A stretch of DNA of 64,000 nt. Source: Aspergillus flavus (Eukaryota; Ascomycota; Eurotiomycetes; Eurotiales; Aspergillaceae). The position numbers and the translations under genes were made by a program. Below, one piece after another: positions 42,138 through 63,937 of this stretch. The stretch is from positions 2,294,001-2,358,000 of the forward strand of contig NC_092407.1 of the NCBI RefSeq assembly GCF_009017415.1, read 5' to 3'. The stretch's first letter is position 1; every line of letters begins with the position of its first letter. A model generated the notes under the pieces. The model had not been told where the DNA came from. It searched no databases and saw only the letters and a list, made by a program, of their open reading frames with translations.

Positions 42138-42812
42138 TTACTTTATACCTTCATTCGACATATCCATTTTCAACCTCATAGTCAGCGCCGCATCCACTGC
42201 TACCGCCCTCAACTGAAGTCTTCCTCGATTTCGCCCCTAGACAGCTTTCCGAACCTCTCCCGCCAAAAGCTCCATCTCTCATAAAACCCACCCCTTCCTT
42301 TCCGCAGTGAGCGCCCTCTGCCTGAAACACCAATACCAGAGTCCTTGTCGTACTTGTCGTCCCAGTAGTGCATCTGTACAGCTAGAGTCTCTATCCACAC
42401 CGCTGCAGCAGGAAGAGATATCTCTAAAGGATTTGCTAGTAGTTCTTTCTTCGGTAGCACATACAGCGTCTCGGAACAGAGGACGAGAACATCGACGAGC
42501 TTATCATGGTATTCGGGGAATTTGCATGCGCAGAACAGTGGCGGGCTCCATAAGTTGCCAATGTCTCCTCTGATAACATGGTGATAGCGTAAGAGAGGCC
42601 ACTTGCTCGGCGGCTGTATGTATATTTATATTGTTGGCGAATAGGTAGAAAAACGACAGATCGGTAAGGGGTGTATTCGTCTTCTTCTGAGAGTTGGAGC
42701 ATTTCTGAAAGGGTATGTTTTCAGTTGACCATTCATGATGTTTGGTCAATGTGGCATATTGTTGGCTGTCAGGAGTAAGTTCGTGATAGTAGGATGAGCA
42801 GCCTGATATCAT
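42138..42812 (-). pseudogene. Broken DUF3632-like gene
   Basis: Three reading frames on the minus strand must be combined to follow one protein-like sequence. The first part (42812 to about 42560) contains NINIHTAAEQVASLTL. The frame then shifts to one with PPLFCACKFPEYHDKLVDV and AAAVWIETLAVQMHYWDD, then RWSFWRERFGKLS. A stop is reached at about 42210, after which the sense continues in another frame (LRAVAVDAALTMRLKM) to the stop at 42138. The HDKLVD and FWRERF patterns are what I associate with the fungal DUF3632 family, whose function is unknown. No plausible intron bridges the shifts, so I call it a pseudogene. Sequencing errors are the alternative. Confidence 0.45.
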
Positions 42813-45417
42813 GGTCTCCTTTCTAATTGCGTTATCCTCCAGTCATAGTAATCGATACACAGTAACCACAGGCCACGTTCCACATCAACATGACTTCACC
42901 TCAACTGAACCAATGAGGAGCTGAGTACGACCTGGACTTGCAACGCATCGCGAAAATCCACTTTTCCTCCAAAGCCAATGAGGAGGGATTCCTTAGATCT
43001 CGTCCCAAAGGAGAGGACGCGTTTTTCTTCCGTCATCGTTGTTGAAGGGATGCCTGGATACTGGTCATGGTTGGCCTTAGGCGAAGATGTACAACGTCAG
43101 ATAGCGCGTAATAAGATATCACGTCATGCGTGTGACACGACAGGGCATTAATAGTGAGAATATAATGTTCTGGCTTGTTTTAGGATGATATATCAGTAAT
43201 CCTTCCCTTTGCGTATCCATCAACGGTACCAATGAATAGGAGCCTGAGGCCCACTTCCGAGTCTGCAAAGCTTGATAGCATAAACGCTCGTCTAGGAGAC
43301 ATTCACTGTCTTTGCGCTTGCGTTAAATGCCCACAACTTGTAAAGGATCAGGACACGATACAGTCAGTATTAGGATGTGCAGGGTCAAGCAATACTTGGT
43401 GGAAGCTGTACCATCGATATTTTGTGAGTGCTCAAGTAACCCAGACATAAGGATCACTTCTGTAATTGTCGAACTCGGCAGTACCAAGCATTTTTCAAGC
43501 ATAAAAATATAGACATTCAAACACTAAAACCATGTATGTTTATATGTTTGTTTGTAACGTTCTCTTGCCGTTTCAAGCCCGAACTGGCGCCGCTTTTTGC
43601 TCAGTGGGCGGCCTGGATCGTGGGATGAGTATAAAAGTGCGTGTCCTGAGTGATTCCGGTATGCTCCGGGAGCGATCCAAAGAGAAACTGAGCGCTTGCC
43701 TGAGCTTACAAAGCACTGGTCATGTGACCAAAATAGAGTCCCCATACCTCACCTTAGCCCCGCCCGTTATTTTCCCGGCCCTCTACAATCATCACCCATG
43801 GCCCCCATTGTATGGATTTTTTTTTTGTATAGCCCCAAAATAAAGATGTCTATACCCTTGAGCACCAACGGCATTACTCCAGTGTTTTATTAAACAAGTT
43901 TGGCTTACGTCTATAGAACGCTCTACCACCACTTGAAGACCCACACTAGGACGGTGACTTAATTCACCGCCCAAGAGTAGGTTCACCGCTTAGGATTGAA
44001 TTCACCGCCCAGCTAATCTACCATTAAAGTTGGAACGAAGTCAAGTAAAACAAAGACTTACGTACAAGAAATTGTCTTTGGACGATCTGCATTACACAAT
44101 ACAGTTATAGTGTGTTGTTGAAGAATTGGCCCATCCTTGGTGATTAGGTGTAGCTTGGCTGACTGATCATTGCGTTGAACAAACTAGAACGTTTCTGTAA
44201 CGGAACTCACACAGATAAGGGAACTGATGAGGCTGTTCGGTTTTAATGAGCCTGGTGCTAAGTACATCCCCTGAAAGGAAATGAGCCATTTCGGATTATA
44301 TTTCCACCTGGGCCGGGCGTGGCTAATTTGACCTTACCGTAGCCCGTGGTAAATACTCCTTCCTCCACTTTGGCGTAGTGAAGCAATCTTAGCGCCTTCT
44401 TATTCAGGTATTAAGGTTCGACCTAGAATTGCCTATATAGTGGGTTTCCTCCAGTCATACGGCTGCCGTAGTGGTGGGTCATGAAGCGTGAGTCTGGACC
44501 AGTCGTGTCTCTCTCCGTCTGCTGATTTGTGAGGCGTAATTTTCGAAATCCCTTGTTGTAATGAGTGGAATCCTACTATTTTCGACCACTTTACTCCGGA
44601 GAAGTAGTTGATAGGGTGATAAGGTGGGGGACCCATCACGGACCTTTCCGCCCGATTGTATCATCATATAGAGTAGTTAAATGGTTATACGAGGTAGATA
44701 AGGGGGGATATTGCAGATCAATTAGGTACAGTTTATGAAACTCAGTTATATAGCCTGGTTCTCAGAGTGGTCGATAACATTTCGTTATGACTCACCTTGT
44801 TGCTATACATGATTATTTGTCAGACTTGCCAGATTCCATTTTGTATACCAGAGGACTCCTCTATATGTGGTGTGTATCTGACGCCTTTCAAGGTACCTTG
44901 TTCTGGCCACCCTGCCAATCTGCCGAAGGCACTGGCAGTTAGATCTGCGTGGGGGCCAAAGGCTCCCCCCCACCCTACCCACTCCCAGCTCGTACTAAAG
45001 TGGATATAATAGGATCCTGGACCACCCTTCCAGGCCTAATCTTTAAGCGAACTGCTCCACAGGGATCACGATCTTTTCACACCCCATCTCAGTAATAGTC
45101 TTATGTGTGCAACTGTGCGCACTATTCGGCAATTACTGACCACTAAAATCTGCGCTGCATTGAACCGAGCCGTGTCCTTTCCGCTAACATGTGTTACACT
45201 AGCATACAACCGCGCTGAAGAAGTGGCCAGAGGGAGTCCGATGCTCGGAGAGGGCCGTTAGATGCTCGAATGAGCGGGCCCAGAACCGCCTGCAAGTGTC
45301 TTGCAGGAATAGTTTCTGCAGAAATAGTGTCTGCGAACCTTGTCGACCATGTCTGCAGTCTCGATGCAACATCCCGCTAGGTGGCCGTGAAGAAGACGGG
45401 AAGATGCTAGGCCGGAT
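42813..45417. other. Gene-free interval before the cluster regulator
   Basis: 2.6 kb with no supported gene. The only local structure is a short imperfect direct repeat at about 43962-44010, in which TTCACCGC occurs three times within about 50 bp (twice as AATTCACCGCCCA). A G/C-rich stretch follows at 44950-44985. No transposon features were recognised. Confidence 0.4.
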
Positions 45418-47823
45418 TTGATCAACAGAACCCCGTCAGACAATGCTACAAGCCTTCCTATTTATTCTCCCTTCGCTGCGTGGGGACCACCCACCCCCGC
45501 AATATGTCCACGGGCTTCGCCTCCAATGTTTCACACGTTCAATCTGGCCATGCCAGCGCGGCATGGTCCTGATCAACGCGCTTCAAGCTCGGCATTGACA
45601 TCCAAACAACGACAGAAAGTATCGCGGGCATGCGATCGATGCCGTACCTTCCGCACCAAGTGCGGGGAGAAGCCGTGCCCACGCTGTGTGCTTGATAAAG
45701 TCAGATGTACGTGGACCTCCAGTCCAGCCGCCAGGCAAAAGTCTAAGACCCTCGTCTCAACCGGGTAAGAAGATCTGGCAGTCGGAGTGGGATAATTACT
45801 GATTATTACTTACCGTTGAAGAAGAGAGCACCACCCCGAGCCCCGTCCCAGGGACAGTGTTCGACTCGATGCGTCTCCGGAAATCTCCCTGGCGCCGGTC
45901 ACCGTCGGCCGACCGCAAATGCCCTCAGCCCCTGCCGGTAGTGCCACTGAGATTATTCCTAATCATGGCCGCGTGAAGCTGGACGAGCACATGGAGCCGC
46001 TCAACCGCCCGGCGTATGTCTTCGTCAAAATCGATGCCTTCTTTGCCGATTCTAGGACCACGTCGCGCACCTCCACGCACGGAGCAATGGCGGATCTGAA
46101 AACTGCATATCCGGGTCCGTTTCCTGATCTGCCGAATATTGCAGCGTTGGCGGACAGGCAACCTCCCTGCAATGAGCACTTGACGGAGGATCAACAAATG
46201 TATTTTCTGAGAATGTTTTGGGAAGCATATCATCCGCTCTTGCAAGTTTCTGATGAAGCGGAATTCCAATCGCTGTTGGATTTGGATCGGCGACAAGATT
46301 CCGAGGTTGGGAGATTGACCAAGGCATTGGTAAATTGTATGACGGCTTTAGGAATCCAATACAGCCATGGGGCCGGCCTAACTTCCCGCATCCTGACTTT
46401 GCGCCGTTGTGCGGTCAATATCTCGTCAGTAGGGTATGGATATTTCCGTCGCTGCCGCGATTATATCGCCCTTCTGACCGAGCCCACACTCCTATCGATG
46501 CAATGCTACGCTCTGATGTCTTTGTATCTCATGAATGCAAGCAATTTCAGGGAGGCCTATAGCCTGCTTGGTTCCGCCATCCGTGACAGCCATAGTGTTA
46601 ATCTCCACGAGGAGCCCAGTGAGCGTCTCCAGCCAAAAGAAAGAATAGCTCAGAAACGGATTTGGTGGTTACTCTTCATGCTCGATATACAATGTTCCCA
46701 GCAGCTTGGGAAGCCAGTCGCTGTACAGACTACTACGATAACGTGTGCGTTGCCGTCAGCTGATGAACAAACGACGAGGGCGTGTTGGAAGAACCTGCAC
46801 ATCTCGACCTATTTCGTTCATGCGGTGAAACTCGCGGTGTCTCTTGCCGAGATCCAACGACTGATTTTCACGTCGAAACTATACGAGGATGCCAGCAACG
46901 TCACAGCGCTAGAACGGCGAGCGAACCTACTAGCCACATCGCTTGTTTGTTTAGAGAAATGGAGCAATGAACTACCGGATGACCTCCTTAGCCCCAGGAA
47001 GAACACGGGCCACACGGAATCTATGTCCACGGCAGAGAGTCCGATAGTGTTAGAGCTCGGAGCACCCAGCTGGCTCCACCACCAACGGGTTTTACTTGAA
47101 GTATACTATCATAATGCGTATATTATGCTTCAGCGGCCATTCATCTGTTTCCCACAGCCTTCCAATTCCTCTCCTGTCCACCAGCCACAAACAGACCACC
47201 ATGCTCGCTGCTCGCTGCAGCACGCCATAACCATGACAATTATCGTCCATGGTCTCTGCTCTTCTTCCGACGTTTTTTTCGGCTCGCCCGCAATCCTGCA
47301 CCCGCTGTGGAACGCCACGGTGACCATTCTTGGATACGTTGTAGCGAACCCATTCTCTCCTCGATCACGGAGGGCAATTCAGTGGATCTTCAAAGCCTTA
47401 GCTGTATTTGAGGCCTTCGCAGCAACCGAACCTTTCGCTGCTCGAGCTGAAAATCTCACACGAGCACTTGTCGCGAAACTGAATGACATATTGACCAACC
47501 TGGATGAAAATTCGGAGCAGACGAACAACTGCGGCAGAATCACCCTAGGATTGACACTGCAGCAATCACCCGATACTATAAGCTCAACTACGCCATCATC
47601 CGCGAACCCGGTTGACGCACCGGCGGGGTCCCTCGCGGGAGGAGGGCTGGAGCACACTTTTGATAATACATTTTTCACGGACGACAGCCTTTGCTCGTCG
47701 ATTGGAGCAGTTGAAATTAACACATGGGCAGCCTATCAAGATCATCTTGACCTATGGAGCAGCAGCCACTCAGATGGAGCGCTTGACGCAATAGATGCAC
47801 TGGGAATAGGCAACACTCCTTGA
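45418..47823 (+). CDS. Zn2Cys6 transcription factor, probable cluster regulator
   Basis: A fungal binuclear zinc-cluster activator. Exons are 45418-45764 and 45825-47823 (60-nt intron), joining exactly to 781 residues. The ATG at 45529 (MFHTFNLAMP) is an equally possible start and would give 744 residues. The zinc cluster reads ACDRCRTFRTKCGEKPCPRC...RCTW, with six cysteines in the CX2CX6C...CX2CX6C arrangement and a basic TFRTK core. The middle homology region (fungal-specific transcription factor domain) shows RDSHSVNLHEEPSE and KRIWWLLFMLDIQCSQQLGKP. A low-complexity, Ser/Pro-rich C-terminus follows. It sits directly upstream of the polyketide synthase on the same strand, the usual place for a pathway-specific regulator. 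Its target genes are inferred from position only. Confidence 0.87.
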
Positions 47824-48751
47824 GAAAAGGGATACACGATCGGCTTCTACGTCCTTTGAAAGAGAGAAGGATAGATAGATATAGATCGATAGAACTTCAA
47901 TTATAGTCCGATGCAGTAATTCCCGGTCTTTCCGGCCGTACGAAAACCCGTGGCCTAAACTAGATACAGACTCCGACTAGACATTCAGGTTAGCAAGGAT
48001 CTCAGGGGCTTCCACGAGGTTGCATCTCCAGGGCCGCCGTTCCGTATAGCCACACGTGGCAAAATCTCCGATTCTGATTCACGTCAAGTCAGTCAGATAA
48101 CGCATCATCTTCCTCTGGCGAACCGGGAGCCAAAGCTAAAGTTTTGTTTATCTTGCTCCTTAATTTGACGATACGTATACTGATAGGATATACAGATTCT
48201 TGTACTCCTTCCTGACTGGGTTTAACTAACCCTGCCCTCCCGCGCTAATCCTGAAACGGTCCCTATACGAATGATCTACGGAAGACCCGAGGCCGGAAGC
48301 CGCCACTAAGCATGGCTTCTAGTCTGTTCCGTTCCAGAAGGAGTCGTTCCGGAATCCTTCACACCCATTTAGGGAGTGATTTTCTTCATGTTCTTGGAGT
48401 ATGTTTTGTATGGCATCTTCGAAACCTTGAGGAACGATGCTTCTATCCGCGCCGCCGAATTGGTGGGAATTTCCGATATACACGTATAGAAACGCCTCAT
48501 GATGATCTTGTTTAGCGTCAGCGGGTAGCGTGCAGTCGGCCAAGTGCCGGTGCTCTGTGTCGGGACGTCAATTTGACAGTTCCCTATGCCTTAACTCAAT
48601 AGTCACATCTGGTTAGCTGTAGTAATCACGCATCCAGAGGAGGACAACGGGAGGTAGATATACAAATGTCATCCGCGTTTGGCACCATCATCTCCCTCAT
48701 TGCTTCCCAGGACAATCGATCCCCACGCGGCTTTCAACACTCCGTATCAAG
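47824..48751 (+). promoter_or_regulatory. Promoter region of the polyketide synthase gene
   Basis: 928 bp between the regulator and the synthase. A 74-codon ORF on the minus strand at 48319-48543 has a protein-like composition (FLYVYIGNSHQFGG, PQGFEDAIQNILQEHEE), but I match it to nothing; it could be a gene remnant or chance. I could not identify a clear repeated CGG-type regulator site by eye. Confidence 0.4.
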
Positions 48752-51700
48752 ATGCATCAAATTCCTGTTTTCGCCGGCTTGGGTTCTGATGCGCTTTTCT
48801 CGGAACGAACTCTGGGAACTGCAGCTGAGGATGCTAGAACATCAGAGGGCCAGATCATCTTACGAGCCTGCCATGACATCTTTGTGAAAGAGATCACCTC
48901 CGTCATTCACAGCCAGCGTCTACCCTCAGACATCAAGCTGGAAGACTTCGTGGAGCCGGAAAGCCTCATACGACCCCAGGCGTGTTATCAACGGAATAGC
49001 ATCATTCAACATGTATCTCTGTACACGATTCAGCTTCTTAGATATTTACGATACTCGACGGAGAAGCCTGGTGTCATCCTTGGTGTGGCTGGATTCTGTG
49101 CCGGATTACTGCCTGGTGCGGCGCTGGCCACGTCCAGGAATACCATCGAACTGCTATCTCGGGGCCAAGATTTCTTCTACGTAGCTCTGCATGTAGGCAT
49201 CCGGATCGAAAGCTACAAGCAGGTTATGATGGGCAAAGAAACCTGTCCACCACATCTGCCCTGTAGTTTGGTCGTCGACGGGATTACGGCCCAGCACGCC
49301 CGAGAACTGCTTGAAGAACACAACAGACGAGTATGACTTGTCCATGATCTGAGAGACCCAAGTGCTGATTTGACAATTCTAGTCTCCTGCTTCTTACATT
49401 TACTTGAGTGCTATCAACTCCGATACTTGTGTTACCCTGAGCGGTAGAGGTGATCATCTTCAGCAATTCAGCCAAAGCAGTGTGCCCTCCCAATGCAAGA
49501 TACGGCCAACGAATATTTTTTCCTTGTATCATGACCGTCACCAGCTCGAGGGAGTCCGAAGGGATATACTTCAAGACCTCCGAAACAATATACTCTTGTT
49601 CTCAACACCCTTACATCTTATTGCCCCGCTGTTTTCTAATATTGATGGGAAGCCAATTGATTCGGGCCAGCTGGCAACGTTGGAAGAACTCTGCGAGAAG
49701 CTCCTTGAGATGATGATCTTAGAGCCGGTGAACTGGGTAGCGGTAGAGGATAACGTACTTGCCGCTATCAAGCAGCCAGCCACCGCTGTGGATGCTTCTT
49801 TTGAAATTTTGAATTTCGGTCCTGGTTACGGCATATCAGGAGCCAGATATACCCTCCCAGATAACGTGAACATTGTAGCTGCGTCAATCGTCGAACCACG
49901 CCCCTCGCTACAAGACACTACTGGGATGCTGTCATCTAATGATATTGCTATTGTGGGTATGGGTGTGGACCTTCCAGGAGCTTCCAATACCGATGCCCTT
50001 TGGCAAAACTTGGCCGAAGGCGTCAATTCTTGCGTCGAGGTGAAGCCCAACGATCTCAAACATCTCCCCCAACTGCTTCCCAACTGACTCGGATTCTGTA
50101 GATTCCGTCTTCAAGGTTCCATGTTGAAGACTTTTATCAGAAGAAAGATGGCCGTACTCTAAGAACAAAGTACGGCAACTTCCTAGAAAACCCATTCATG
50201 TTCGACAACGAAATGTTTGGTATCTCCCGTCGAGAAGCCCTTTCAATGGATCCACAACAACGAGTCATGCTCCAAACTGCCTATCGAGCACTGGAAGATG
50301 CGGGATATGTCCCTGATTCAACCCCGTCATTCTCCAGGAGGACGTTCGGTTGTTTTATCGGAAACGCTACATTGGACTATACCGACAATCTTAGAGACCA
50401 CATTGATGTCTACTACAGCCCAGGTAAATCCTGTCATGCTTGACTCTTATCGATACCGTGGCAATGCTAATCGCTTCACCTTAAGGAACGTTACGCGCTT
50501 TTCAGAGTGGACGGATAAGTTACGTCTTTAAATGGAGTGGGCCATCTATCACTTTGGATACAGCATGTTCGTCATCGATGGTCGCCATTCATCAAGCAGC
50601 ACGAGCTCTGCAGGCTGGAGACTGTCGGTCGGCATTGGTTGGGGGTGTAAATGTCATCAGTAGTCCTGACGTGAGTAAATCTTTCCACTTTCCTCAGTTT
50701 TCATTAGAAAAACGAAAAAAAAAAAAAAAAAAGCAGTCCATGATGCTCTCCAAGCCAATGGAGCCACTTTTCTGAAATCATTATGAACTGACAGCGTCTT
50801 AGATGTATCTTGGTCTTGATCGAGCGCATTTCCTAAGTCCTACTGGCCAGTGCAAGCCATTTGATGATTCGGCAGATGGCTACTGCCGGTCTGAAGGCTG
50901 TGCAGCATTCGTGATCAAGAAGCTGAACGATGCGATATTGGAAGGTGATCGAATACTCGGGGTTATTCGAGGCATTGAGATTAATCAAAGCGGCAATGCG
51001 CATTCCATAACGCATCCTCATTCACCAACGCAGGAATACTTATTTCAAACGTTACTAAAGAAATCCCAGGTTCATCCTCATCAGGTGCGTAATCCCAAGC
51101 GGGTAACTTTTACCAGCCGTAGGAATTTCCCTTCTCCGCCAGGCATCCTCCGCTCGATTGCTACCACCAGGTGCTAGCGCATTTACTAACATGTTCACAG
51201 ATTACTGTGGTGGAAACACATGGCACAGGCACACAAGCCGGGGACCCAAATGAGCTTCTTAGCATTCGCGGAGCATTCTGCAACGGTCGAGATCCAGGGA
51301 ATCTTCTCCATTTTACTTCTATCAAAGCAAACATCGGCCACTGCGAGGCCGCTTCCGGCGGTGCAGCATTGGCAAAATTACTTCTGATGATGAGACATGG
51401 CAAAATACCCCCACAGATATCCCTTAAGACACTTAACCCTAAGATCAAAGACCTTGGCACAGACGGATCCGCTATTGATCGTGACGGTGCTACTTGGCCT
51501 CGATCTTCGAGACACCCGCGGCTTGCTCTACTTAACAACTTTGGTGCAGCGGGTTCTAACGGTGCCTTGATACTGCAAGAATACTCTAGCCTCAAAGCTA
51601 CCCCTCAAAATGAGGAGCAGTGCGAGGCTCACAGCTATATGCTTGGGTTCTCGGCTAGAAGCCACACAAGCCTCCTTGCCTATAAAGATGCGTTGATCTC

Positions 51701-54700
51701 TTATCTGGAGGCTCCTTCGTTACCGAGTTCTCTTCGTGATGCTGCTTATACTAGCACGGCTCGCCGCCAGATCTATGACTATCGTATTTCTGTTACCGGT
51801 TCCACCATACAGGAAATTGTCGACAACTTGAGAAACGCAGATATTTACAACATTCGCGAGTCGGCAAATCCACAGCCACGTGCGGTGTTTGCATTCTCTG
51901 GTCAAGGATCACAGGTGAAGCTCTCCATTACAGTACATCTGGATTTACGGAACTAACAAACATTGTAGTACCTAGGAATGGGCCGTGAGCTTTTAACCTC
52001 TCAACCCGAATTTAAGAAAGTGGTCCTGGACTGCGACCGATGGTTATTGAGCAATGGATATCCGGGATGTCTCAATGTAATCGCATGCAAAGACGACCAA
52101 GAACGGCAATCTCACTCATCTTCGCTACTACAACAATCTCTTCAAACAGCAGTCTTTGTCTTGGAGGTAGCACTAGCACGCCTTCTTATCTCTCTGGGTA
52201 TTATGCCAACTATTGTGCTGGGTCACAGGTATGCTCATACACCAGATTCCTCTTCTACGGTTCTATAGCTAATTTGGTTACTAGCCTGGGAGAGTACGCT
52301 GCCCTAGTTATTGCTGGTGTGATTGATTTGCAAAGTAGTCTGAAACTGGTAGCACATCGAGCAAAGCTTATGATGGAGCTGTGTGAACTTGAAAAAACGT
52401 CAATGCTTGCGGTTAACCTCAGTGCAGAGACCGTGAGACGGCACATTGGCAACAGCCCAGAATTTCACGATTTAGCTATATCTTGTGATAACAGTGAGTC
52501 TGATTGCGTTGTTGGGGGCCCAATCAGTCAGCTCCAATCTCTGAAAGCAAAACTCGGTACGATGAAGACGCGGTCGAAAATCCTCGACGTTCCAATGGCT
52601 TATCATACACACGCATTGGACCCTATATTGGTTCAATTAACGGAAGTCGCTAAGACACTCGAAATCTCATGTCCGAGAATCCCTGTTCTATCCAACGTGT
52701 TTGGCCGCGTTATTCAACCTGGTGAAAGAGCTTTCACCTTTGAGTATTTTGCCATGCATTGTCGCCAGACCGTTGCTTTCAACGCAGGCATTCGTGAGCT
52801 CTCTAGTAGTGGAATGGGGGCTGAAATCTCCCGATGGATAGAAATAGGGCCTCATCCATCTGTGCTACCAATGGTCAGCACTAGATTGGATAGAGACACT
52901 ACACATCTTCTACCTTCATTACGAAAAGGAACTCCGGCATCTGCGACAATTGCTAGACTACTATGCCATTTTTACCAAACCACTACCGTGCTGAATTGGC
53001 GAAAAGCTTTCGATGAGCGAGCAACCTTAACCACCCTTCCGGTCATGCCGTTCTCAGAGCAGGAATTTGGTATTTACTATCCACGTGAGAGTACTCAGAG
53101 AGCCTCGGGCAAGTGTGATCAAAATACTGATTCTCAAACTGGGTACACCTTCCTGTCCAAGATTGTTCAACGTCCATCGGAGACGAATAGGGAGGCCATC
53201 TTTGAGACGCCAATTGCGGTCTTCAAGGAATATATTCTGGGTCACCGTGTCTGTGAACAGGCTCTATGTCCTGCATCGGTCTACCACGAGATTGTTCTAG
53301 CTGCTTCCAAGTGGATACAGCGGGATCCAGGTGAAGAAGCCACCAGGGCACTTTCGAATGTGCTATATCCGGCACCTTTGCTATATTCAGAAGAATCTTC
53401 TGCAATTGTTAGGGTTTATATAAAGCCTGGCGGTGACCACAAGACAAACTATTCGTTCACTGTGGCCTCATACAACGCAGGTTCCGATCCGCAGCAACAG
53501 GTGATTCATTGTCAGGGGCAGCTGAAGACACGACCTGCTGCTCATGCCCAAAAGTATGCAAAGCTAGTGCCGCTCATGGAACGGCAAAAGGAACGGTTTT
53601 TGCGCGTTGACCAATCGAGCACACAGGTGTTTCTCCGAAAAGCCCTGTATGAAAAGGTTTTTACCCGGGTCGTCACATATTCCGAATTGTATCAGATGGT
53701 TCAGTCGGTGCGCATCGACCAAGATGAAGCGCTCGCAGTGTGTCGTTTCCCCAATTCACAAGGAGAGCCTTCAAGGGCGAACACGGTCATGATGGATGTC
53801 CTCCTTCATGTTGCTGGTTTCGTCGCCAATCTCAATATTGAGAATGATGAAGTCTGCATCTGCAAGGAGGTCAAATCTGCTACCATGACTCGAAATATCC
53901 CCTTCTCAGACACGACGTTCGAAGTCTATTGCAGCAATCTCGAAATCGCAGCTACCAACGTGATCATAGCAGATGCATATGCGGTCGATTCACGAGGCGT
54001 CATTGCTGTCTTCAAGGGGATGGCCTTCCAGCGAGTGAAACTAACGAGAATGGCTCAAGCCCTCCGGTTGGCAGCTGCGAGATCTGGTCATTCACATCAA
54101 TCTGTCCCAATAGAGAGAGCCAAACTAGTAGCTCCAAAACCGTCAGCTCCTAACTCAAAGCCTCCTGATATGCCCGTTGACAAGCAGCCAGCTATCAGAG
54201 AGATCATTGCGAGAACTTGCAATCTAGAGGCATCAAACTTAGTTGCGGACACCAGCCTTCACGCCATCGGTTTTGACTCGCTCATGATGATTGAACTTTC
54301 GTCCAACCTGTCTTCTAAGCTTCATACCTCAATCGATATATCAGCTCTGGAGGAGTGTAAGACCGTTGAAGACATTGAGCAACTGTGCAGCGATGAGGGC
54401 CAATCAGGACCCACCCCTATCTCGGAAGCAGAGACTGTGGACTCTGTCACGATGCCAACAACACCGGCAACGCCTGCAGATAAGCTACTCATTGCGTCTA
54501 TAATTGCCGAAACATGTGGTGCCCATATTACCTCCGTCAAGTCAGATGTCGAGCTCGAGGCTCTTGGGATTGATTCACTGATGATGATTGAGCTGGAAGC
54601 CCGTCTGCAAAGTCCATCGAACTCCAAGAAACTTTCATCTTTGGAACTATCCGAATGCAGAACAGTGAGAGATATTGAGAGATTAGTAGGTCCATATATA

Positions 54701-55777
54701 GTGAACTAGGCAATAGCAGCTATTTAGAGGCGTACAGTCCGCCCCTGACATGTTCCAGGCAAATATAGATGACGCAAAACCAGCCCAAGTTGAAGTTGAG
54801 ATTTCTTCTCCTTTATCCCCCCGAATCCTTGGTGAAATAACACAATCTCCAGTACTGGAAGCCGAAAAGAAAGAAGTGCCCGCGTCCATGAAGTTGAGGA
54901 TTGCGGCGATTCTCAAGTTACAAGAGCAACCCGAAATTGTGCATCTCGCCGAGGACAAGGCCCCCCAAAATGCCCCTCTGTTCCTAATCCACGACGGCAG
55001 CGGCATCTGTGTTCAATATCACCGACTAAGACCCTTCAATCGCACGGTTTATGCGATCCACGACCCCAAATTTCTGGACCCCGATTCCTGGTCAGGAATT
55101 CCTGCTATGGCTCAGTCTTATGCACGGCTTATTGCAAGGACAACGTCCGGTCCTTACATCCTCGGTGGCTGGTCGTTTGGCGGTGTTGTTGCATTCGAGG
55201 CTGCTCGAGTGCTAATGGCAGGAGGCTACCCGGTCACCGGTGTAGTTCTCATCGATTCACCGCCGCCACTAAATCACAAGCCGCTCTCTGCGAACATCAT
55301 CAATGCCGTTACAAAAGGTGATAGAAATAGAGGAGGCCTGGTCGGCGAGACTATTCGCAACCTTGTCAGGGAAAGCTTCAAAGCCTGCGCGGGTATGCTT
55401 GGGGCTTTCCAACCCGAGGCTGTGACAAGGACCAGTCGATCGATTCCACGGACTTTCTTGCTCCGATCAAGGGATGGCTTTCATCTAAACACGAGAAATG
55501 ATAGTCGGGGGTTGGAGAACGATTGGTTGCAGGATCGCTCCGACCCCAGGACTTCTATTGAGGGATGGGAGATGCTTACAAAGGCAAAGATGCCTTATCT
55601 GGATATCCCAGGTGACCATTTCCAGGTCTTCGACGTTGCGAATGTAAGTCGGTGGTTACTTCTAAATATCTGGAGACAAGGGAACATGCTAATTTTCACA
55701 CCATGGAACAGGTACAAGCCGTATCAAAAGCTATCGCTCACGCATGCAGTGAATTAACAAACATCTCTTCAAGTTGA
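48752..55777 (+). CDS. Non-reducing iterative polyketide synthase (SAT-KS-AT-PT-ACP-ACP-TE)
   Basis: Builds an aromatic polyketide from malonyl-CoA. Ten exons: 48752-49330, 49383-50039, 50102-50423, 50486-50670, 50803-51084, 51201-51914, 51969-52228, 52285-54685, 54738-55643 and 55712-55777. They join exactly to about 2123 residues. SAT has the active GFCAG cysteine (~residue 116). KS starts near 378, with DTACSSS (~546), VETHGTGT and KANIGHC. AT has GHSLGEY (~1000, split by an intron). PT has its histidine in [13 protein letters not shown] (~1319) and its aspartate in [11 protein letters not shown] (~1502). The two ACP serines are in GFDSLMM (~1664) and GIDSLMM (~1763). TE has GGWSFGG (~1944) and GDHF (~2092). 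The TE exon follows a stop at 54707-54709; a 52-nt intron at 54686-54737 removes it. All active-site residues are present, so the enzyme should be functional. The product is not predictable from sequence alone. Confidence 0.93.
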
Positions 55778-56263
55778 AAGAAACCCATGAGGCTATATCC
55801 ATTGGAGGGCAAGATGACTACGAGCTGTCAATAGCGGATTTTGAGTCGGGGAACGTTTCGCATACATACTTTTACTGCATAGAATGTGCTTAGGTTTCTT
55901 AGCATTTCTAGATCATGTATAGCTTTTACGACATTAAGAAGCTTTATTTTCAATAGAATTTTGTACAACTGCTTTATCTCGTGGTAATTTAAATTATACC
56001 ATGATAAATTTAGGAAGTTATGGTGAATCTGTCGCTCTCAAGACTTAGAAATATTTCCCAACCATGTCCTGGTTGTAGTATTGTAGTAGATTGGAGTATT
56101 TGAGTAAGAGACTCACCGTATCAGTAGCTCTTCTCGTATATATCCTGATGTCTATTCGACCTGGCAACTTACAGAGGACACGAGGTTTCTAGGACATTCT
56201 ATTCATGAGGAGCTCTGAGGTGATATATTCTCTCTATCAAGTTCTTAATGTGCCAGGGATCCC
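55778..56263. other. Convergent intergenic region (synthase / methyltransferase)
   Basis: 486 bp of AT-rich sequence between two converging genes, presumably 3' UTRs. Nothing else is seen. Confidence 0.4.
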
Positions 56264-57670
56264 TCAGAGCCCACATACGACAACTCCCAGATTGTAACCT
56301 GGTGCATAGGGGACCACTTTCTTGATCTTCAGTCCCACGGCTCCTACAAGCTTCGCCCATTGTTCCTCCGATCGCTCCATGGAGCTATGAAACGTCATCA
56401 TGGTCAGATCATGTTGTGTGGACGCCTCATCCACGCGCTGAGAGGGTAAGACCATTTCATCAAGCAAAATCAGAGAATCTTCCCCCAGAGCCGGGACTAG
56501 ATTACTCAGAATCTTGATGCTATTCTCGTCTGTATGGTCATGCAATATCATTCGCAAATAGTAGTACTTGGCACCTGTCTTCCAATCAGTCCCAGACCAA
56601 TCATGATAACAACACCTTTTTCGTTGTTTCTTACCTATGACAGGCTGTGGCTCGAAGAAGTTATGCGCCATTCGCTCGACATTCTCCGGAACCACCGATT
56701 TTGCGTCCTCGATCGGCTCCGGCAAGTCCTGCAAAACCACCCGACCAGGGAGATTTGGAAATCGCTCTAGGAAGGAGACGGTTTGATATCCGGCGCCGCC
56801 ACCGACATCCACGAATAGGGGCTTATCGGATGGCCAGCCCTTACTTTCCTCGTCAAACGGGTAAAGGTCGAAGCATTTGGGTTGGGATCCGCGTTGTGCT
56901 TTCATGAAGTGATTGAAGTGAGCACTCCTCACGGGATCGCCATGAACGAAGGCGAATGTGTGCAAGTCCGTTTTGTGAGCCCTTTGGAAAATGCCGTCGG
57001 TGAAACTGGTAGGGTTCTGGTAGCCTGTTTCCGCAAGGTAACGAGGCATTTCTTGATAGGTTGGGTTACACATGTCGAAGTAGACGTACAATCCGGCCTG
57101 AATCTCGGGTCTGGCGAGATTGGATGTATATCGCGTCGAAGTAAAGGTGTCTCGGCCTGCTTCTTTAAGCACCCCTAGCGACGCTAGATAGCGTAGAACA
57201 CGACCTGTCTTCCTAGTTAGAATTTCTGGGGCGCATTGAGCACTGTGGACTGAACTGGAGTTTCGGTACTTGCCGAGAAGCAACGGGTCTGCAGAGTGCT
57301 TGGCTGCTAGGTGATTGACAGTCGAGGGCTCTGCATTGTCAAGGATATCATTAAAAAGGTTCAAGTCAAGAGCCGTGCGGATTGCAGCAAAGTGAAGATT
57401 CTAAGCGACATTTTTTTTTTTAGCTTTTGAGGACAATAACTAGCAGGGTTAGGGGAAGCAAGACTCGAAAGTCTGGCAAGAGAAAGTTGAGGTACTTCTG
57501 CAAGTGCGATAGTTCAGGATAATTCATACCATGTGTATCACTCTCTGCATAGCATCCTCGGGGGTCTCGATGCTGTATTGTAAGTCTCGCAAGGTGTCTA
57601 GGAGCTTTTTGCGCTCCACATAATTGGCTGAAGCAGCCTCCTGCTGTATCTTCGCGATCAGGCTTTCCAT
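56264..57670 (-). CDS. SAM-dependent O-methyltransferase (plant/aflatoxin-OMT type)
   Basis: Methylates a phenolic hydroxyl, here probably on the polyketide. Exons are 57670-57530, 57400-56635 and 56574-56264, joining exactly to 405 residues. The first exon (MESLIAKIQQEAASANYVER...) supplies the N-terminal dimerisation helices and continues NLHFAAIRTALDLNLF across the intron. The SAM-binding motif is FVDVGGGAGYQ, and VVLQDLPE follows. The second intron lies between EPQPVI and GAKYYYLRMILHDH. The histidine in MILHDH is the usual catalytic base, and LLDEMVLP is the post-SAM motif. Without splicing, the second intron would insert a basic segment (KKQRKRCCYHDW) foreign to the family. It is convergent with the synthase and co-directional with the cupin gene. 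Confidence 0.9.
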
Positions 57671-58421
57671 GGTGTACAGCTTTCCCAAAACTTGGTTAGG
57701 TAGAGAAATGTAAGGAGTCTTCTCTCTTAATAGTATATTATGATAGACATATTTTGTAATTGCCTGTACAATTAGCGGGCTGGCAAGCATTCTCGGAGAA
57801 CATGCAGATCTGTCTGTATGTGACCAATCGGAACCTCATTACATTCGAAGAGATGTAATCCAAAGGCATGGGAAGGCGAATGCATAATTCGAAGCAGTTT
57901 GCTGTGCCTTTACGAAGCTGTGAGTGGTCGTAGGAGATACTGTACATCATCGCTTTGCCTTCCCAAATGCGAAGGAAGAACAAGCAAGCTGATATTCCAG
58001 AATGGGATACTCCGGAAGGGGGATATTCCAGATGGGGATATTCCAGATGGAGATATTCCAAAAGGAGGTATTCCAAAAGGAGGTATTCCAAAAGAAGATT
58101 ATTCCAAAAGGGGAAATGGAGCGACAACGGTACGGGCCGGATGATCCCTTCCATATCAGATTGGGTGTCTGTGCTGTATCAAGATGAAAGTAACTAATTA
58201 ACTATAATCGAGTAGTAAGATGCTGGGTTTCTCTGTATTTTTTGTCGTTCTAAAGGCCTTTGATGCTCGGTTTGTTATCAGAATCTTTTCTTGGCAGTCT
58301 AGTTCGCAAAAGTTTATGATTTTTTTTTTGAAAGAATATGAAGTAAGGAAATGTCGACCTTGAGGATTTGATTTTAGAAATAAAACAATTCATATACAGT
58401 ATAAAACTCTTAAATTAAACT
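57671..58421. other. Intergenic region containing a 15-bp minisatellite
   Basis: 751 bp between the methyltransferase start and the cupin gene end. Besides the tandem repeat at 57991-58110, ORFs run through the repeat on both strands, because the unit is a multiple of three. None is recognisable. The left half should contain the methyltransferase promoter. Confidence 0.4.
57991..58110. repeat. Tandem repeat, 15-bp unit, about 8 copies
   Basis: Consensus near GGATATTCCAGATGG, drifting to AGGTATTCCAAAAGG. Units start at 57991, 58006, 58021, 58036, 58051, 58066, 58081 and about 58096; the last is one base out of register. Two adjacent units (58021 and 58036) are identical. Because the period is 15, all frames stay open through it (GDIPD/GGIPK on plus; LEYLL on minus). 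Confidence 0.9.
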
Positions 58422-59505
58422 TCAGCGCTTCCGAACCTGAGCAATTTCCGATTTCAACCCAGAAGAGATACCAATAACAGTCTCCTCGTCTGCTCTAGAT
58501 AGCTCACTGATTTGGACGGATCCATTAGTATTCAAGCCCTTCTCTGCAGCCTTGGACTTAGCAGCTCTTGTAGCTGCTGTGACATCCTCGAGCAGATATT
58601 GGAGCTCTGCATTGGTCGGGTTGGGTCCAGCAGAGAGGTCTGCTTCTCTATCCCAGCGCTCCTTCGCGGCCCAAAAACCGTCAACTGACCGCCGAGTCCA
58701 GAACGAACTTTTCATTTTGTTTACAGCAAACTCCCAATCCGTCGTATATTCTTTGAAGAATGGCTTGTAGCCTAGCAGACCCCCAAGCCACCGGCCAATA
58801 ACCACACTGGCCCAGTAGCCAAAGAAAAGCCGAAAGGGCATCCATGCCGGTGCTGGAGTATAATGCCCGCCTGCATCGAGCATCTATGATCAATTAGTGG
58901 TTGTGTTCTATATTCCAAGTATAAGACAAACGGACTTGTAATTTTTGAATGAAATCAAGACCCCCATCGTAGAGCAGTGCGTCGTGCCAGTATCCGTACC
59001 AATTCTCGAAGAAGACTCTATCAAGCTGGTTATCAATCCCCGCATCTGAACCACTCAGTAGCACGGTCATGTATTCGCCTGAATCAGGATGGATGTGGAA
59101 ACGGTGGATCCGGTTCGCTGGGAGAGAGACCTCCCCGTCTTCTGGAGTCAGGTTGCGCGACACGCCATCAACCTCAGCCACACAGATACCATGCTCGACG
59201 TGGAAGAACTCGCTCTGGTACCGATGGAAGTGCATCGCAGGGCCATCGGGTCGTTGGGGGCTATCGATGAGCTTCCGCAGCGCAGGCGAGACAGGTCCTT
59301 CCACGTCCAGCCTGTAGGTCTGACGCATCATAAAACTTCGACCCGGGGGTGGCTCCAGGAACTCAACAGTAAGGAGGCCACCAAATCTGCAATGCGGTTG
59401 ATATTAGCATCAAGGAGTGATAGCGAAAACATGTTACACTCACTTTCGAATAGTACTCGAGCCAGCCGATGTGTGGTAGGGCACAAAGGGGGTAAGGAAA
59501 CCCAT
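58422..59505 (-). CDS. Cupin-domain protein of the polyketide cluster
   Basis: Exons are 59505-59444, 59386-58936 and 58883-58422, joining exactly to 324 residues. The N-terminus reads [20 protein letters not shown], then [17 protein letters not shown] single cupin barrel follows: motif 1 is [15 protein letters not shown] (H-x-H-x4-E-x6-G, metal-ligand pattern) and motif 2 includes [13 protein letters not shown]. The C-terminal third holds a hydrophobic, Trp/Gly-rich stretch ([19 protein letters not shown]) that may be membrane-associated, and then a charged helical tail. The metal-ligand residues argue for an enzyme such as a dioxygenase, isomerase or cyclase, but the reaction is unknown. 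Position between the methyltransferase and the monooxygenases suggests a tailoring role. Confidence 0.72.
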
Positions 59506-59870
59506 CTTGTAAATTCGACAAGTGAAGTTGTACGATTTCGAACACAAGTACGTGAGAGATCAGAGGTCACACCTGAGGATTTTCAACTCACCATTTTTAT
59601 TTATTTTCTCGCCGAGTATTCTGCTCTTCACTAATAGCATCAGTTCTGTTCCTACTGGTCCCGTTCCCAACGTGGTAGGATGTGGGGCGATCCTTATGGG
59701 CCACCAACTTGACACTCTTCGATGCCTATTGTGGAAGCCTCTCAGCATACTCTCCCGATCTCCTTGGATCTTAGCCACTAGCTTCCATAGCGAGGTGCTG
59801 ACCGTGATTAAGGCCAGAAGTCCGGTCCCCTCGTCGCGTTATTAGTGGGATATTCTTTTCAATCATTCAG
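59506..59870. promoter_or_regulatory. Divergent promoter between the cupin and FAD monooxygenase genes
   Basis: A 365-bp divergent promoter that could co-regulate two cluster genes. No clear TATA box or zinc-cluster palindrome could be picked out by eye. Confidence 0.4.
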
Positions 59871-61688
59871 ATGGTACGTCGGAAATCTGCTGTTGGTTGC
59901 ATCTATTATCTGCGGCTATATTTGTTAAAAGTTTAGAAGGTGGAAAAAATGGTACGTGTTCTGACCCTAATTATTGTCCAAGGCGCTTGACGCCCGTGTT
60001 CTCAAGACAGTTGAAATAGTCCGGTTACATATCATCATTGTCGGCGCAGGTCTCGCAGGGATTTCTGCTGCCATATCGTGCGCATTAGCCGGCCATTCAG
60101 TCACCGTCCTCGAGGCAGCAAAAGAACTTGCAGAAGTAATTTTCCTCGTCACCCACTTAGGATCAAATAATGACATCGCCTTTGCTTAGGTTGGTGCCGG
60201 CCTCCAAATCACCCCTAATGGCTCGCGCCTTCTCAAAGCCTGGGATCTTCCTCAAACCATGTGGGATCAGGCAGCTGAACCAACACAGTTGACCGTACAT
60301 CGATATTCTGGGGCAGTGCTGGCCCGTGAGGTTGACTTTGATAAGAAGATCCGAAGGAAATACGGCGTGCCTTTCGTTGATCTGCATCGAGGGGACTTAC
60401 AACAAGCTTTGTACGAACGGGCTCAGCAGTTGGGAGTGAAGTTCCATCTGAATGAACGCGTACAAAATGTTGATCCCGCAGTGCCGTTGCTAACGACTAT
60501 TTCGGGGCACGAATACCACGCTGACTTAATCGTTGGAGCTGATGGCTTGTGGTCACGAACTCGAGAATGCTTCCTAGGAACTGCTGATCCGCCCAAGCCG
60601 ACAGGAGACTTGGCATATCGAATTGTTCTGTCTCTGGATCAAATCAAAGAGCCAGCTTTACGAGACTGGGTCAGCCATCCAGAAGTCAATTTTTGGATTG
60701 GTCCTGGATCACACGCGGTTGGATACTCCTTAAAGTCGGGTAAAATGTATAATCTTGTATTGCTTGTACCGGATGATCTACCTCCAGGTATCACGAAGCA
60801 ACCTGGAAATGTCGAAGAAATGAAACTGCTCTTCGAAGGCTGGGATCCCATGTACGCAGAGTTTGACCGGCCACTTTGCATTCCGAAATTAATGACTAAC
60901 CCAATTCAAGTCTCACCCAGCTTCTAGGCTACGTTAAGAGAGTTGACAAGTGGAAACTTATGCATAGTAGGAGAGTCCAGAATCCCTTGCTATTACAGTA
61001 AACTGACAGTGTTTGAATTGCAGGAGAGGAGCTACCATCATGGATCAACGAAGCCAATAATTTTGTCTTAATGTAAGTCGATCAATATTATGTTTCTAAA
61101 ACCTAATATTTCGAGCCACCAAGTAACCATCTGACAGAGGCGATTCCTGCCATCCCATGCTTCCATATCTTGCACAGGGCGCTAATTCGTCCATGGAGGA
61201 TGGCGCGGCCTTAGGGACGATCTTAAAGTCCGTCACAAAGAAGGAGCAACTCCCGAATGCTTTGCATAAGTTTGAAAAACTTCGAAAATTGAGAAGTGAG
61301 GCTATCGCCAGGGAAACATTTAAACAGGTAGGCACTATCGATTATGTCGAGCTCTAACTTCATGTCCTATAGATCTCAGGTACATAGACTGACTTCGGAG
61401 GCTATCGACTGTAGCGGAATGATTTCCACATGCAGGATGGCCCTGACCAAGAAGCTCGAGACGAAATATTCATATCACAGCTCGGCAGAGAAGAAATCAC
61501 TGGTGCTTTTCCTAGCCGATGGTTTGTGCCCCCCTCGATAGCCCAGCAGGCATTCATCTCTAATTACCAACAGGACGTGCCCCGTTGTCCAACCATGGAT
61601 ATATGGATATGATGCGATAGTCGAAGCTGAAAAAGCGCTTAAAGGCAGAAGATTCTCCAACATTGAAGGGGAATCCCCGAAGATGTAG
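59871..61688 (+). CDS. FAD-dependent monooxygenase, salicylate-hydroxylase-like
   Basis: A group A flavin monooxygenase for aromatic hydroxylation or decarboxylative hydroxylation. Exons 2-8 are 59983-60135, 60190-60851, 60911-60966, 61024-61072, 61138-61327, 61415-61521 and 61574-61688. With the proposed first exon, only the ATG at 59871-59873, the sum is an exact frame of 444 residues. Motifs: GXGXXG in HIIIVGAGLAG, VGAGLQITPNGSRLL across intron 2, the DG motif LIVGADGLWSRTR, then YVKRVDKWKLMHREELPSW built from two tiny exons, and the GD motif LIGDSCHPMLPYLAQGA. The C-terminus is HMQDGPDQEARD and PWIYGYDA. An alternative ATG at 59949 leaves only a 31-nt intron, so it is less likely. Tail-to-tail with the other monooxygenase. 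Confidence 0.85.
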
Positions 61689-61822
61689 GGTTCAGGGAAG
61701 TTCCAGAATAAGGCAGCTGAGCTTTATATTCGCCAGTCAAATCCGCAAAAACAAAAACCTGACAGTATCCTAGCTACATGTATCTTCGTAAGGTGAATCA
61801 CAGATCAGCTTTACATTCTCCT

Positions 61823-63937
61823 TTAATTGAGATCGTTTCCCACAACTTTTCTCTTATCCTCCTTGAAAAATCCCACAAACGCATCCCCCTGGCCCTCGCC
61901 CACCCCTAGCTCCTCTTCCACACCATGAATGCTTGTCAGATTAATTTCTAGATTCAGCTCCTTCTTCTCCCACTCCATAAACCCAGGGTCTGTCTTCCAG
62001 CCCAGCGCAATGCTCAAGATATTTCTGATCCGTCCTTCGTTCAGCTCACAATGTTCATCCCTCGCCCCTTCTTTGCCTCCACGCCAGGCGACATATCCGT
62101 CCGGACGGACTAACACATAATCGTAATTTTCCCACACGTTCTTAACGTGCTTCTCTCCGGCATCCAGTTCGACATGCGTCAGCGGTATCCTCATTGCCTT
62201 GGCTACAGCTTTGAATGTCGCCACCGGGGAGGTCGCTTTGTTATCCAAACTGACGAAGCCATTGGCCGTTTGATTGTCACTTTCGACCTGCGAGAAGTCC
62301 ATCAATGACCATTCTATCCCATAGAGATCCACGATACTTGTTTGGTTATCCCTCAAGAATACATGTGGTGCCCTATGGCCGGGCCTTGTACTTGGCGTAT
62401 AGCGCATGTTATCGAATCTCGGCTCCCTCGTCCCGTCGCTCACAATGATTGCACTATTCAAATACCTCAGGTCCAGTTCCACTCCACGGTCGATATTTTC
62501 AGGTCCCACGCGGTCCAGGTGTCTTGCTACCTCGGCTCGTGCCTTCTCTCCTTCCTCGCTCTTCTCGAGGAAAATGTCGGTGTTCGGGGCCGTCATCGTA
62601 CGCACGATCATCGGAGTGAATTTGCCGATATGGGCATCGCAACGTTCGAGACGCAACATCATGTTCGGTCTGCGCTCATCTGTATAGGAAGTAACGAGGT
62701 TGCCTCCACCAATTCCTTTGTGTAAAGCGGAGAGACGCCACGCGAGCGAGATGGCGTCTTCTACGCCGCTGTTCATCCCATAGCCGCCATGGGGAGGGTT
62801 CCGATGAGCAGCGTCACCGCAGAGGAACACACGGCCATGTCCATCACGACTCACATAGGAATCTGCAAGACCAAAGTTCGGACGCCATGCATTCGCCAAC
62901 ATGATTTCGTCGATTTTAAATTTGTAAGGCTTGCCGAGACTGCCAAGGACACGATAAGGGATTTCCTCAGGATGTTCTTGGAGCTCTCTGATGGCGGCGG
63001 CATCAGCAGAACAAGGTTCGTGACAGGTATAAGTGTCAACGTCGTCTTGGTCAATCATAAAGCCGCCGTGGAGGCCAAAGGCGTGCCACCACTTGCCGAA
63101 TGGGGAGAGCTTGGTGAGTTCTTTGGACCGGAAGTGGACCATGAAAAAGGCAGCTGGCCTAAGTAGAGATAAAAATCGCCGCCATGTTAGCTGGTGTTGA
63201 CCTTTGACTGACCGGGGGGGGGGGGATGGAACACTCACAGAGGTCTTCCCTTCAGTTGAATCCCGACGCTTTTCCTTACTTTACTTTGGGCACCATCTGC
63301 GCCGACCAAGTAAGGGGTTCTAATCATCTTTTCATGATTGTCCATATCTCTGAAAGTAGCAGTGACGCCCTCGTTGTCTTCCCCAAGCGATACAAATTTG
63401 TAACCAAAGTGAGTCGCAATCAGGGGTTCGGCGAGGCATTTTTTCTTCAAGAATGCTTCCAGCACTATCTGCGAGCAACGCTGACCAGGCTCGGCAGGCT
63501 GTGAGCCATCGTTATTTGCATGAATCTTGGCGCGATATTCGTTGTTGCTTGGGATATGCTAGCAGAAGATGTTAAAGACTACGCCCCAAAGAGTTTTCTC
63601 CTTCGAATATAACAGGACATACCCATCGACTAACAAGCTTCTTGTTCACCCCGCAAGTGTTGAAAAAAATGGTATCCCAATCGCTATGCTGTGGTACAGC
63701 CCCAGGTTGTTGTCGATATTCCTCAACCAGCCCCATTATGCGCAAAATCTCCATGGTATGGCAGCTGTTGTGGTCCATCTTGGGCCAGCGTGTCGTCTCG
63801 GTATTCATTTCGCATAACGTGCATGGTACCCCCAGCTGTGCCAGCCTAAGAGCTGTCAACATACCAACCGGGCCCGCCCCTACTATGAGAGGGCCTGGGG
63901 AAAATTGAATTGTGTCGTCTACCTGGATGGAGCCCAT
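61823..63937 (-). CDS. FAD-dependent monooxygenase, phenol-hydroxylase-like
   Basis: A flavin monooxygenase of the phenol 2-monooxygenase/MhpA type (FAD_binding_3), with a C-terminal thioredoxin-like region. Exons are 63937-63623, 63558-63239 and 63158-61823, joining exactly to 656 residues. The start MGSIQVDDTIQFSPGP leads into LIVGAGPVGMLTALRLAQLG (dinucleotide fold). The DG motif is LVGADGAQSKVRK, and the GD motif region is RVFLCGDAAHRNPPHGGYGMN. The C-terminal third includes VLVRPDGYVAWRGG, the usual end signature of this subfamily. The second intron contains a run of 11-13 G (about 63213-63226), where base count may be unreliable, but it is non-coding. It probably works with the neighbouring monooxygenase on the polyketide ring. 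It starts 63 bp from the window end. Confidence 0.9.

Follow-up and report, generated by a model that had tools for sequence, protein, structure and literature searches.

A non-reducing polyketide synthase cluster with a PatJ/AtD-family cupin in Aspergillus flavus and its proposed role in the biosynthesis of fumigatin-type toluquinones

A 64,000-nucleotide stretch of the Aspergillus flavus genome (the window; C3:2294001-2358000 in a genome of 37.7 Mb and 8 contigs) was analyzed for the polyketide gene cluster at its downstream end. Introns were placed by hand at GT-AG sites with a check of reading-frame continuity, and all coordinates are in window numbering unless a contig is named (Table 1). 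Six genes within the window encode a regulator, a non-reducing polyketide synthase (NR-PKS), an O-methyltransferase (OMT), a cupin protein and two flavin monooxygenases (FMO1 and FMO2). A preliminary description of the sequence had placed genes of these types at these positions, and each was verified to be free of stop codons once the GT-AG introns are removed. The window edge splits the cluster, as genes for a transporter and a hydrolase follow beyond it. All eight gene models are complete and are separated by intergenic gaps of 134-928 bp. The approximately 2.8 kb ahead of the regulator (42626-45390) contain no frame of at least 120 aa, and the next frame of at least 110 aa downstream of the hydrolase begins about 2.1 kb away. 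The least certain joins are found in FMO1, whose first exon is a lone ATG codon, and in the MFS transporter gene, which has one intron of just 36 bp. The Cys cluster of the regulator was read by eye and has no Pfam match. A 15-bp tandem repeat (57991-58111; 7.9 copies, 85% matches) lies between the OMT and cupin genes. The cluster is real and intact.

Table 1. Genes of the cluster and the related gene set on contig C4 (window numbering unless a contig is given)
Feature	Position	Strand	Model	Remarks
Zn2Cys6-type pathway regulator	45526-47823	+	745 aa, 2 exons	Fungal_trans 7.9e-22
NR-PKS, SAT-KS-AT-PT-ACP-ACP-TE	48752-55777	+	2116 aa, 10 exons	probable orsellinic acid synthase
OMT	56264-57670	-	386 aa, 4 exons	Methyltransf_2
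Cupin, PatJ/AtD family	58422-59505	-	324 aa, 3 exons	predicted epoxidase
FMO1, salicylate-hydroxylase class	59871-61688	+	444 aa, 8 exons	predicted decarboxylating 1-hydroxylase
FMO2, phenol-hydroxylase class	61823-63937	-	656 aa, 3 exons	predicted ring hydroxylase
MFS transporter, intact	64477-66006	+	gene model	past window edge
Alpha/beta hydrolase, epoxide-hydrolase-like	66424-67284	-	gene model	past window edge
Second regulator + PatJ/AtD-type cupin + decarboxylating-FMO-like set	C4:4504986-4513340

Pfam matches along the synthase comprised SAT, KS, AT, a pair of ACP stretches and TE, and the PT region was matched by DH-fold families. The active-site motifs had been described as intact, and all motifs rechecked are indeed present: GFCAG in SAT, DTACSS, HGTGT and NIGH in KS, GHSLGE in AT, GHRV in PT, the DSL serine in both ACPs, and GWSFGG and GDHF in TE. 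No C-methyltransferase or reducing domain (ketoreductase included) was found among the 14 Pfam families listed, and a plain aromatic acid is therefore the expected product. Aligned with A. flavus G4B11_005017, the model shows 99.7% identity (2115 of 2121 columns) and differs by one substitution and by five residues at one splice choice ahead of the TE; this match supports the other exon joins. The KS and PT phylogenies that had been proposed as a check were computed from the best 120 of 5666 synthase homologues, each row being a 90% cluster under one name. The KS tree contained these 120 rows and the query (121 sequences), while 120 sequences entered the PT tree after P0210 was dropped for gaps. 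Both trees place the query in a single 11-member clade with support 1.0, which spans A. flavus, A. minisclerotigenes, A. viridinutans, A. pseudoviridinutans and A. fumigatus as well as Penicillium longicatenatum, P. nucicola, P. maclennaniae, P. angulare and P. macrosclerotiorum. Among the matches listed, orthologs from outside the flavus group are 76-88% identical, after which identity falls to 52%. These orthologs represent eight species, and the A. fumigatus row is a 90% cluster of 239 sequences. The next layers of the tree hold synthases of Beauveria, P. chermesinum and Xylariales together with one that its source names 'orsellinic acid synthase' (P0166). A Beauveria synthase, 47% identical to that of the window among the matches listed, is presumably OpS1. 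Judged from its sequence, the window synthase would make orsellinic acid.

A search with the cupin protein returned 107 homologues, among them proteins of P. longicatenatum (86% identical) and A. floccosus (64%). The cupin is 57% identical to a Neofusicoccum protein named 'putative epoxidase' and 55% identical to A. clavatus ACLA_093650, whose listed name is cut off and which we take to be PatJ; identity to another protein, which bears the name patJ (P0035), is 48%. Its residues His73, His75, Glu80 and His115 make up the usual cupin metal site; in the 43 of the 107 homologues that were aligned, the three His residues are present in all 43 and Glu80 in 42. An NCBIfam scan of the cupin gave no family match whatever. 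The fold search was carried out with the AlphaFold model of the 86% homologue P0001 in place of the window cupin (mean pLDDT 78.5, with a confident strand-rich domain at residues ~20-134), and its first three matches were quercetin dioxygenases, followed by other cupins; query template-modelling scores across the entire chain were low (0.27-0.33 for the first three). According to excerpts of PMC5794859, AtD is 62% identical to PatJ (A1CFL7.1) and, as shown via pathway assembly, converts 3-methyl-1,2,4-benzenetriol into terremutin by epoxidation and hydroxyl oxidation, a step that comes after the decarboxylative hydroxylation of 6-methylsalicylic acid (6-MSA) by AtA. The window cupin is a PatJ/AtD-family member and a predicted epoxidase, with its kinship to AtD traced via PatJ-type relatives.

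The best solved relative of FMO1 is 8gsm, a '4-hydroxybenzoate decarboxylase' (397 bits, 416 residues aligned); 8x38 (decarboxylative vanillate 1-hydroxylase) and 8r2t come next, ahead of salicylate monooxygenase and hydroxylase chains. A paralog of FMO1 (62% identical) was seen at C5:358972-360673; the closest KS match on that contig is some 120 kb away. FMO2 is of the 2,4-dichlorophenol 6-monooxygenase / 2-hydroxybiphenyl 3-monooxygenase type. NCBIfam yielded nothing above cut-off among the best 25 of 76 rows for FMO1 and the best 25 of 58 rows for FMO2. FMO2 is 99% identical to A. flavus AFGD_009957 (650/656) and has no near paralog, as its best other match in its own genome is only 29% identical. 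Its homologues were listed as the best 120 of 5270, the first 72 of which were used for a tree. Among the matches listed, orthologs outside the flavus group (83-89%) are found in A. fumigatus, P. macrosclerotiorum, P. nucicola, P. frequentans, P. angulare and another Penicillium; five sequences at 58-73% follow, and the next named matches are at 44-47%. LepI and MpaG' are the nearest solved relatives of the OMT. For the hydrolase, the best matches are Cif-type proteins (a group of epoxide hydrolases), and proteins annotated as epoxide hydrolases or dehalogenases rank behind them; its nucleophile Asp and late His are kept.

The preliminary description could not name a product, and the fumigatin family can now be proposed. 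With a probability of roughly two in three, the cluster is considered to direct the biosynthesis of toluquinones of the fumigatin type (fumigatin, fumigatin oxide and spinulosin). With gene content, intactness, family membership and the presence of synthase orthologs in reported producers observed, we infer that the genes are expressed and that the reactions would proceed in the following order. The NR-PKS would join four acetate units, the PT domain would close the ring and the TE would release orsellinic acid. FMO1 would then swap the carboxyl for a hydroxyl group (decarboxylative ipso-hydroxylation) to give 6-methyl-1,2,4-benzenetriol, and FMO2 would hydroxylate the carbon between both original hydroxyls to give tetrahydroxytoluene. 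Methylation of the new hydroxyl by the OMT would lead to fumigatol, to be oxidized to fumigatin, and the metal-binding cupin would oxidize the quinol and epoxidize the methyl-bearing double bond to yield fumigatin oxide. Opening of the epoxide, perhaps via the epoxide-hydrolase-like neighbor, would give spinulosin-type products; this is the weakest step. The MFS transporter would export the product and the Zn2Cys6 protein would regulate the cluster. In our own atom bookkeeping, with orsellinic acid numbered as C1 COOH, C2 OH, C4 OH and C6 CH3, hydroxyls at C1 and C3, O3-methylation and C1/C4 oxidation give exactly fumigatin. The resulting quinone has its methyl beside a carbonyl, then OH, then OCH3, and C5=C6 epoxidation gives fumigatin oxide. 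The required enzymes (a decarboxylating hydroxylase, a second ring hydroxylase, one OMT and an epoxidase) are all present as far as family assignment goes. The preliminary description had expected ring oxidation beyond simple hydroxylation, which is supported, as the cupin family includes the epoxidase AtD.

Published chemistry was compared with this scheme. Fumigatin is 3-hydroxy-4-methoxy-2,5-toluquinone in the old naming, by the title of a 1938 paper cited in excerpts of PMC7186497. The A. fumigatus extrolites given in excerpts of PMC4703822 include orsellinic acid, 3-hydroxytoluquinone, 2,3-dihydroxy-5-methyl-1,4-benzoquinone, 1,2,3,4-tetrahydroxy-5-methylbenzene, fumigatin, fumigatin oxide and spinulosin; they are in line with the predicted steps and thereby support the fumigatin route. 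For certain numbered quinones of A. fumigatus, a review passage gives these reaction types as well, likewise starting from orsellinic acid. A 1972 paper reports, by its title, a new metabolite under ethionine inhibition, which may mean that methylation comes after hydroxylation.

The presence of three reported producers among the close synthase orthologs favors the fumigatin family. A. fumigatus is reported for fumigatins and spinulosin (PMC4703822, in excerpt), and P. longicatenatum and P. maclennaniae are both reported for spinulosin, so that by species name 3 of the 8 ortholog species outside the flavus group are reported producers, all within the 11-member clade. P. apimei, the closest relative of P. 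macrosclerotiorum, makes spinulosin, as does P. pulvis, and fumigatins are recorded for the series Viridinutantes, to which A. viridinutans and A. pseudoviridinutans belong. No ortholog from the other producers P. brocae, A. udagawae and A. ferenczii is among the matches listed.

Linkage of the genes in other genomes was judged from equal-sized contigs, which says nothing on distance, using 12 of the 107 cupin, 17 of the 120 PKS and 6 of the 120 FMO2 rows, chosen because their species recurred. PKS and FMO2 lie on equal-sized contigs in P. macrosclerotiorum, P. nucicola and P. angulare (3 of 5 pairs); the pairs that disagreed are a second P. angulare entry and A. fumigatus, where the rows carry different locus-tag prefixes. 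The A. flavus FMO2 and PKS rows, which were not part of the linkage table, are also on contigs of unequal size. For cupin and PKS, 8 of 13 same-species pairs agreed: P. longicatenatum (two separate pairs), Nemania, Parahypoxylon, Hypoxylon crocopeplum, Hirsutella, Xylariales AK1849 and Annulohypoxylon truncatum. Disagreement was seen for Bathelium, Hypoxylon FL1857, A. maeteangense, Xylaria cf. heliscus and Apiospora aurea (P0211, P0099), the last of which was added to the 12 pairs of the linkage table from the listings, as well as for two cross-pairs between both P. longicatenatum loci. In the agreeing pairs of Parahypoxylon (AAE478_007924/007930) and Hirsutella (HIM_01197/01202), the locus tags are also close. 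The earlier view that the gene set forms one pathway is supported in part by the equal-sized contigs of PKS and FMO2 in three Penicillium species and of PKS and cupin in P. longicatenatum, but the full set was not seen together elsewhere.

Several observations weigh against a fumigatin cluster. In no other genome was the whole gene set found together, only PKS+FMO2 or PKS+cupin pairs, with FMO1 and OMT orthologs left unsearched. Among the eight ortholog species from outside the flavus group, P. longicatenatum alone is named in the cupin rows, and just A. fumigatus, P. angulare, P. nucicola and P. macrosclerotiorum are named in the close FMO2 rows; absences from these two listings are weak, since each row is a 90% cluster under one name and the cupin list lacks even the window's own protein. 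P. longicatenatum, P. maclennaniae, A. viridinutans and A. pseudoviridinutans, unnamed in the FMO2 listing, may be hidden within such clusters. The regiochemistry proposed for FMO2 and the OMT is that suggested by their enzyme classes. The hydrolase has Gln at the position of a His in Cif epoxide hydrolases, which we take to be His177. A. viridinutans has a synthase ortholog, yet fumigatins appear only in its series entry and not in its species entry. In the excerpted texts, none of P. angulare, P. nucicola, P. macrosclerotiorum and A. pseudoviridinutans is recorded as a producer, nor is spinulosin recorded for P. frequentans, which has an FMO2 ortholog and belongs to the same series as P. pulvis. 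Spinulosin from A. flavus has been reported once, in a record rated dubious (PMC6208954). The cluster offers a possible genetic basis for this lone report without proving it.

The strongest alternative is a different orsellinate-derived toluquinone or epoxyquinone, with another O-methyl site or as a terremutin-like epoxycyclohexenone. Enzyme class sets the type of reaction and leaves its position free, and distant relatives also pair an NR-PKS with a PatJ/AtD-type cupin on equal-sized contigs, so that a wider product family is probable. The three reported producers among the close synthase orthologs speak for fumigatin itself, and the alternative is held to be unlikely, at about one chance in several. 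The distant pairs (P0155/P0075 from P. longicatenatum, P0119/P0038, P0146/P0043 and P0122/P0041) come from Penicillium, Xylariales and Hypocreales, and they perhaps form a wider family of uncharacterized epoxyquinone clusters.

The preliminary description had considered ring contraction or cleavage, and penicillic acid or a cyclopentenone of the terrein type would be examples of such products. Penicillic acid probably derives from orsellinic acid via methylation, oxidation and ring opening, the terrein cluster likewise combines an NR-PKS with two flavoenzymes, and the wider relatives of FMO2 include a Baeyer-Villiger enzyme (23lo). Penicillic acid was the first idea from gene content and was set aside since the term has no occurrence in the section Fumigati review. 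Excerpts of that review give terrein for A. lentulus, A. fischeri and a third species, and neither of the two named species appears in the list of synthase orthologs. The characterized relative of the cupin, AtD, is an epoxidase, and neither a multicopper oxidase nor a further ring-opening enzyme is among the eight modelled genes. Contraction or cleavage need not be invoked, as epoxidation accounts for the genes present and agrees with the distribution across species, and such a product is regarded as improbable. A silent or decayed cluster that makes nothing in the A. flavus lineage would accord with the dubious rating of the lone spinulosin report (PMC6208954) but is highly improbable given complete gene models and the retention of all checked motifs.

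A second set of related genes was detected in the same genome. The sole other cupin match (C4:4509316-4510094) is 53-56% identical, and the nearest paralog of the regulator (1.2e-50, the next being at 8.6e-10, with 60 of 92 candidates scored) starts 1.1 kb from it and shares 28% identity with the window regulator across 657 columns. A homologue of FMO1 (37-38%) lies about 1.6 kb from the C4 cupin on the side opposite to the regulator paralog. Because all three recur together on C4, the regulator is tied to the cupin and FMO1 as one unit. No PKS was found near the C4 set, the nearest KS match on C4 being at 4.15 Mb, and by eye the surrounding frames resemble a CoA ligase, an amino-acid-oxidase-like protein, an SDR and ABC and MFS transporters. 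Somewhat short of even odds, regulator, PatJ/AtD cupin and decarboxylating flavoenzyme might constitute a portable epoxyquinone module placed on varied aromatic suppliers, with the window as its fumigatin version, intact in the A. flavus group. With similar reserve, the suppliers could be a 6-MSA synthase for terreic acid and patulin, an orsellinic acid synthase of the non-reducing type in the window and in Xylariales/Hypocreales, and the CoA-ligase-like context on C4. Apart from this set, a fused tryptophan synthase (TrpA+TrpB; window ~37904-40200, minus strand) is encoded about 5 kb upstream of the cluster regulator and is one of three such loci in the genome.

Fumigatin and spinulosin are classic mold quinones (1938) with isotope-era pathway proposals and genes unnamed in searchable papers. 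No assignment of a gene cluster to them was found in the open-licence literature, with subscription journals and supplements outside the search. The words fumigatin, orsellinic, NR-PKS and toluquinone are absent from a 2024 timeline of A. fumigatus clusters, as are spinulosin, fumigatin and gene cluster from a quinone review, and excerpts of a 2020 paper name the tailoring enzymes as a topic for further investigation (PMC7186497). The chemistry is old and the class of system is known, and the gene assignment appears to be unreported in the open papers searched. If correct, it would make a long-open A. fumigatus assignment testable by a single deletion and would add the A. flavus group to the potential producers, a point of relevance to food and industrial safety lists. 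The AtD/PatJ cupin epoxidases, which are poorly understood, would moreover gain a second kind of scaffold supplier.

Comparison with known systems places the cluster among several related pathways. The terrein cluster of A. terreus leads to a ring-contracted product and includes a multicopper oxidase and a Kelch protein; the preliminary description had held the two gene sets to be distinct, with which we agree on gene content. The patulin pathway is similar in its cupin (48% identity to the protein named patJ) and is based on 6-MSA, has a lactone product and is without an NR-PKS. The oosporein cluster (OpS1-OpS7) of Beauveria contains the cupin-family protein OpS7 and uses the oxidase OpS5 for dimerization together with the glutathione S-transferase (GST) OpS6, oosporein being a dimer without an O-methyl group. 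An OpS5-type oxidase and a GST are absent from the eight modelled genes. OpS4 of that cluster turns orsellinic acid into 6-methyl-1,2,4-benzenetriol by decarboxylative hydroxylation, as stated in excerpts of PMC5794859. The same excerpts describe the terreic acid cluster of A. terreus (atX, atA, atD, atE, atG, atC), which likewise has a decarboxylating FAD hydroxylase, the AtD cupin epoxidase, a putative transporter (atB) and a zinc-family regulator (atF), but which starts from 6-MSA and employs the P450s AtE and AtG and a GMC oxidase. The window shares the PatJ/AtD-family cupin with its His3-Glu metal ligands; its synthase, in contrast, is non-reducing, having SAT, PT and TE and no ketoreductase match as opposed to the partially reducing 6-MSA type, its second hydroxylase is a flavoenzyme, and an OMT is added. 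Agreement is also seen with the fumigatin and spinulosin metabolites of A. fumigatus and Penicillium, where the isolated compounds, as given in PMC4703822 in excerpt, match the predicted intermediates.

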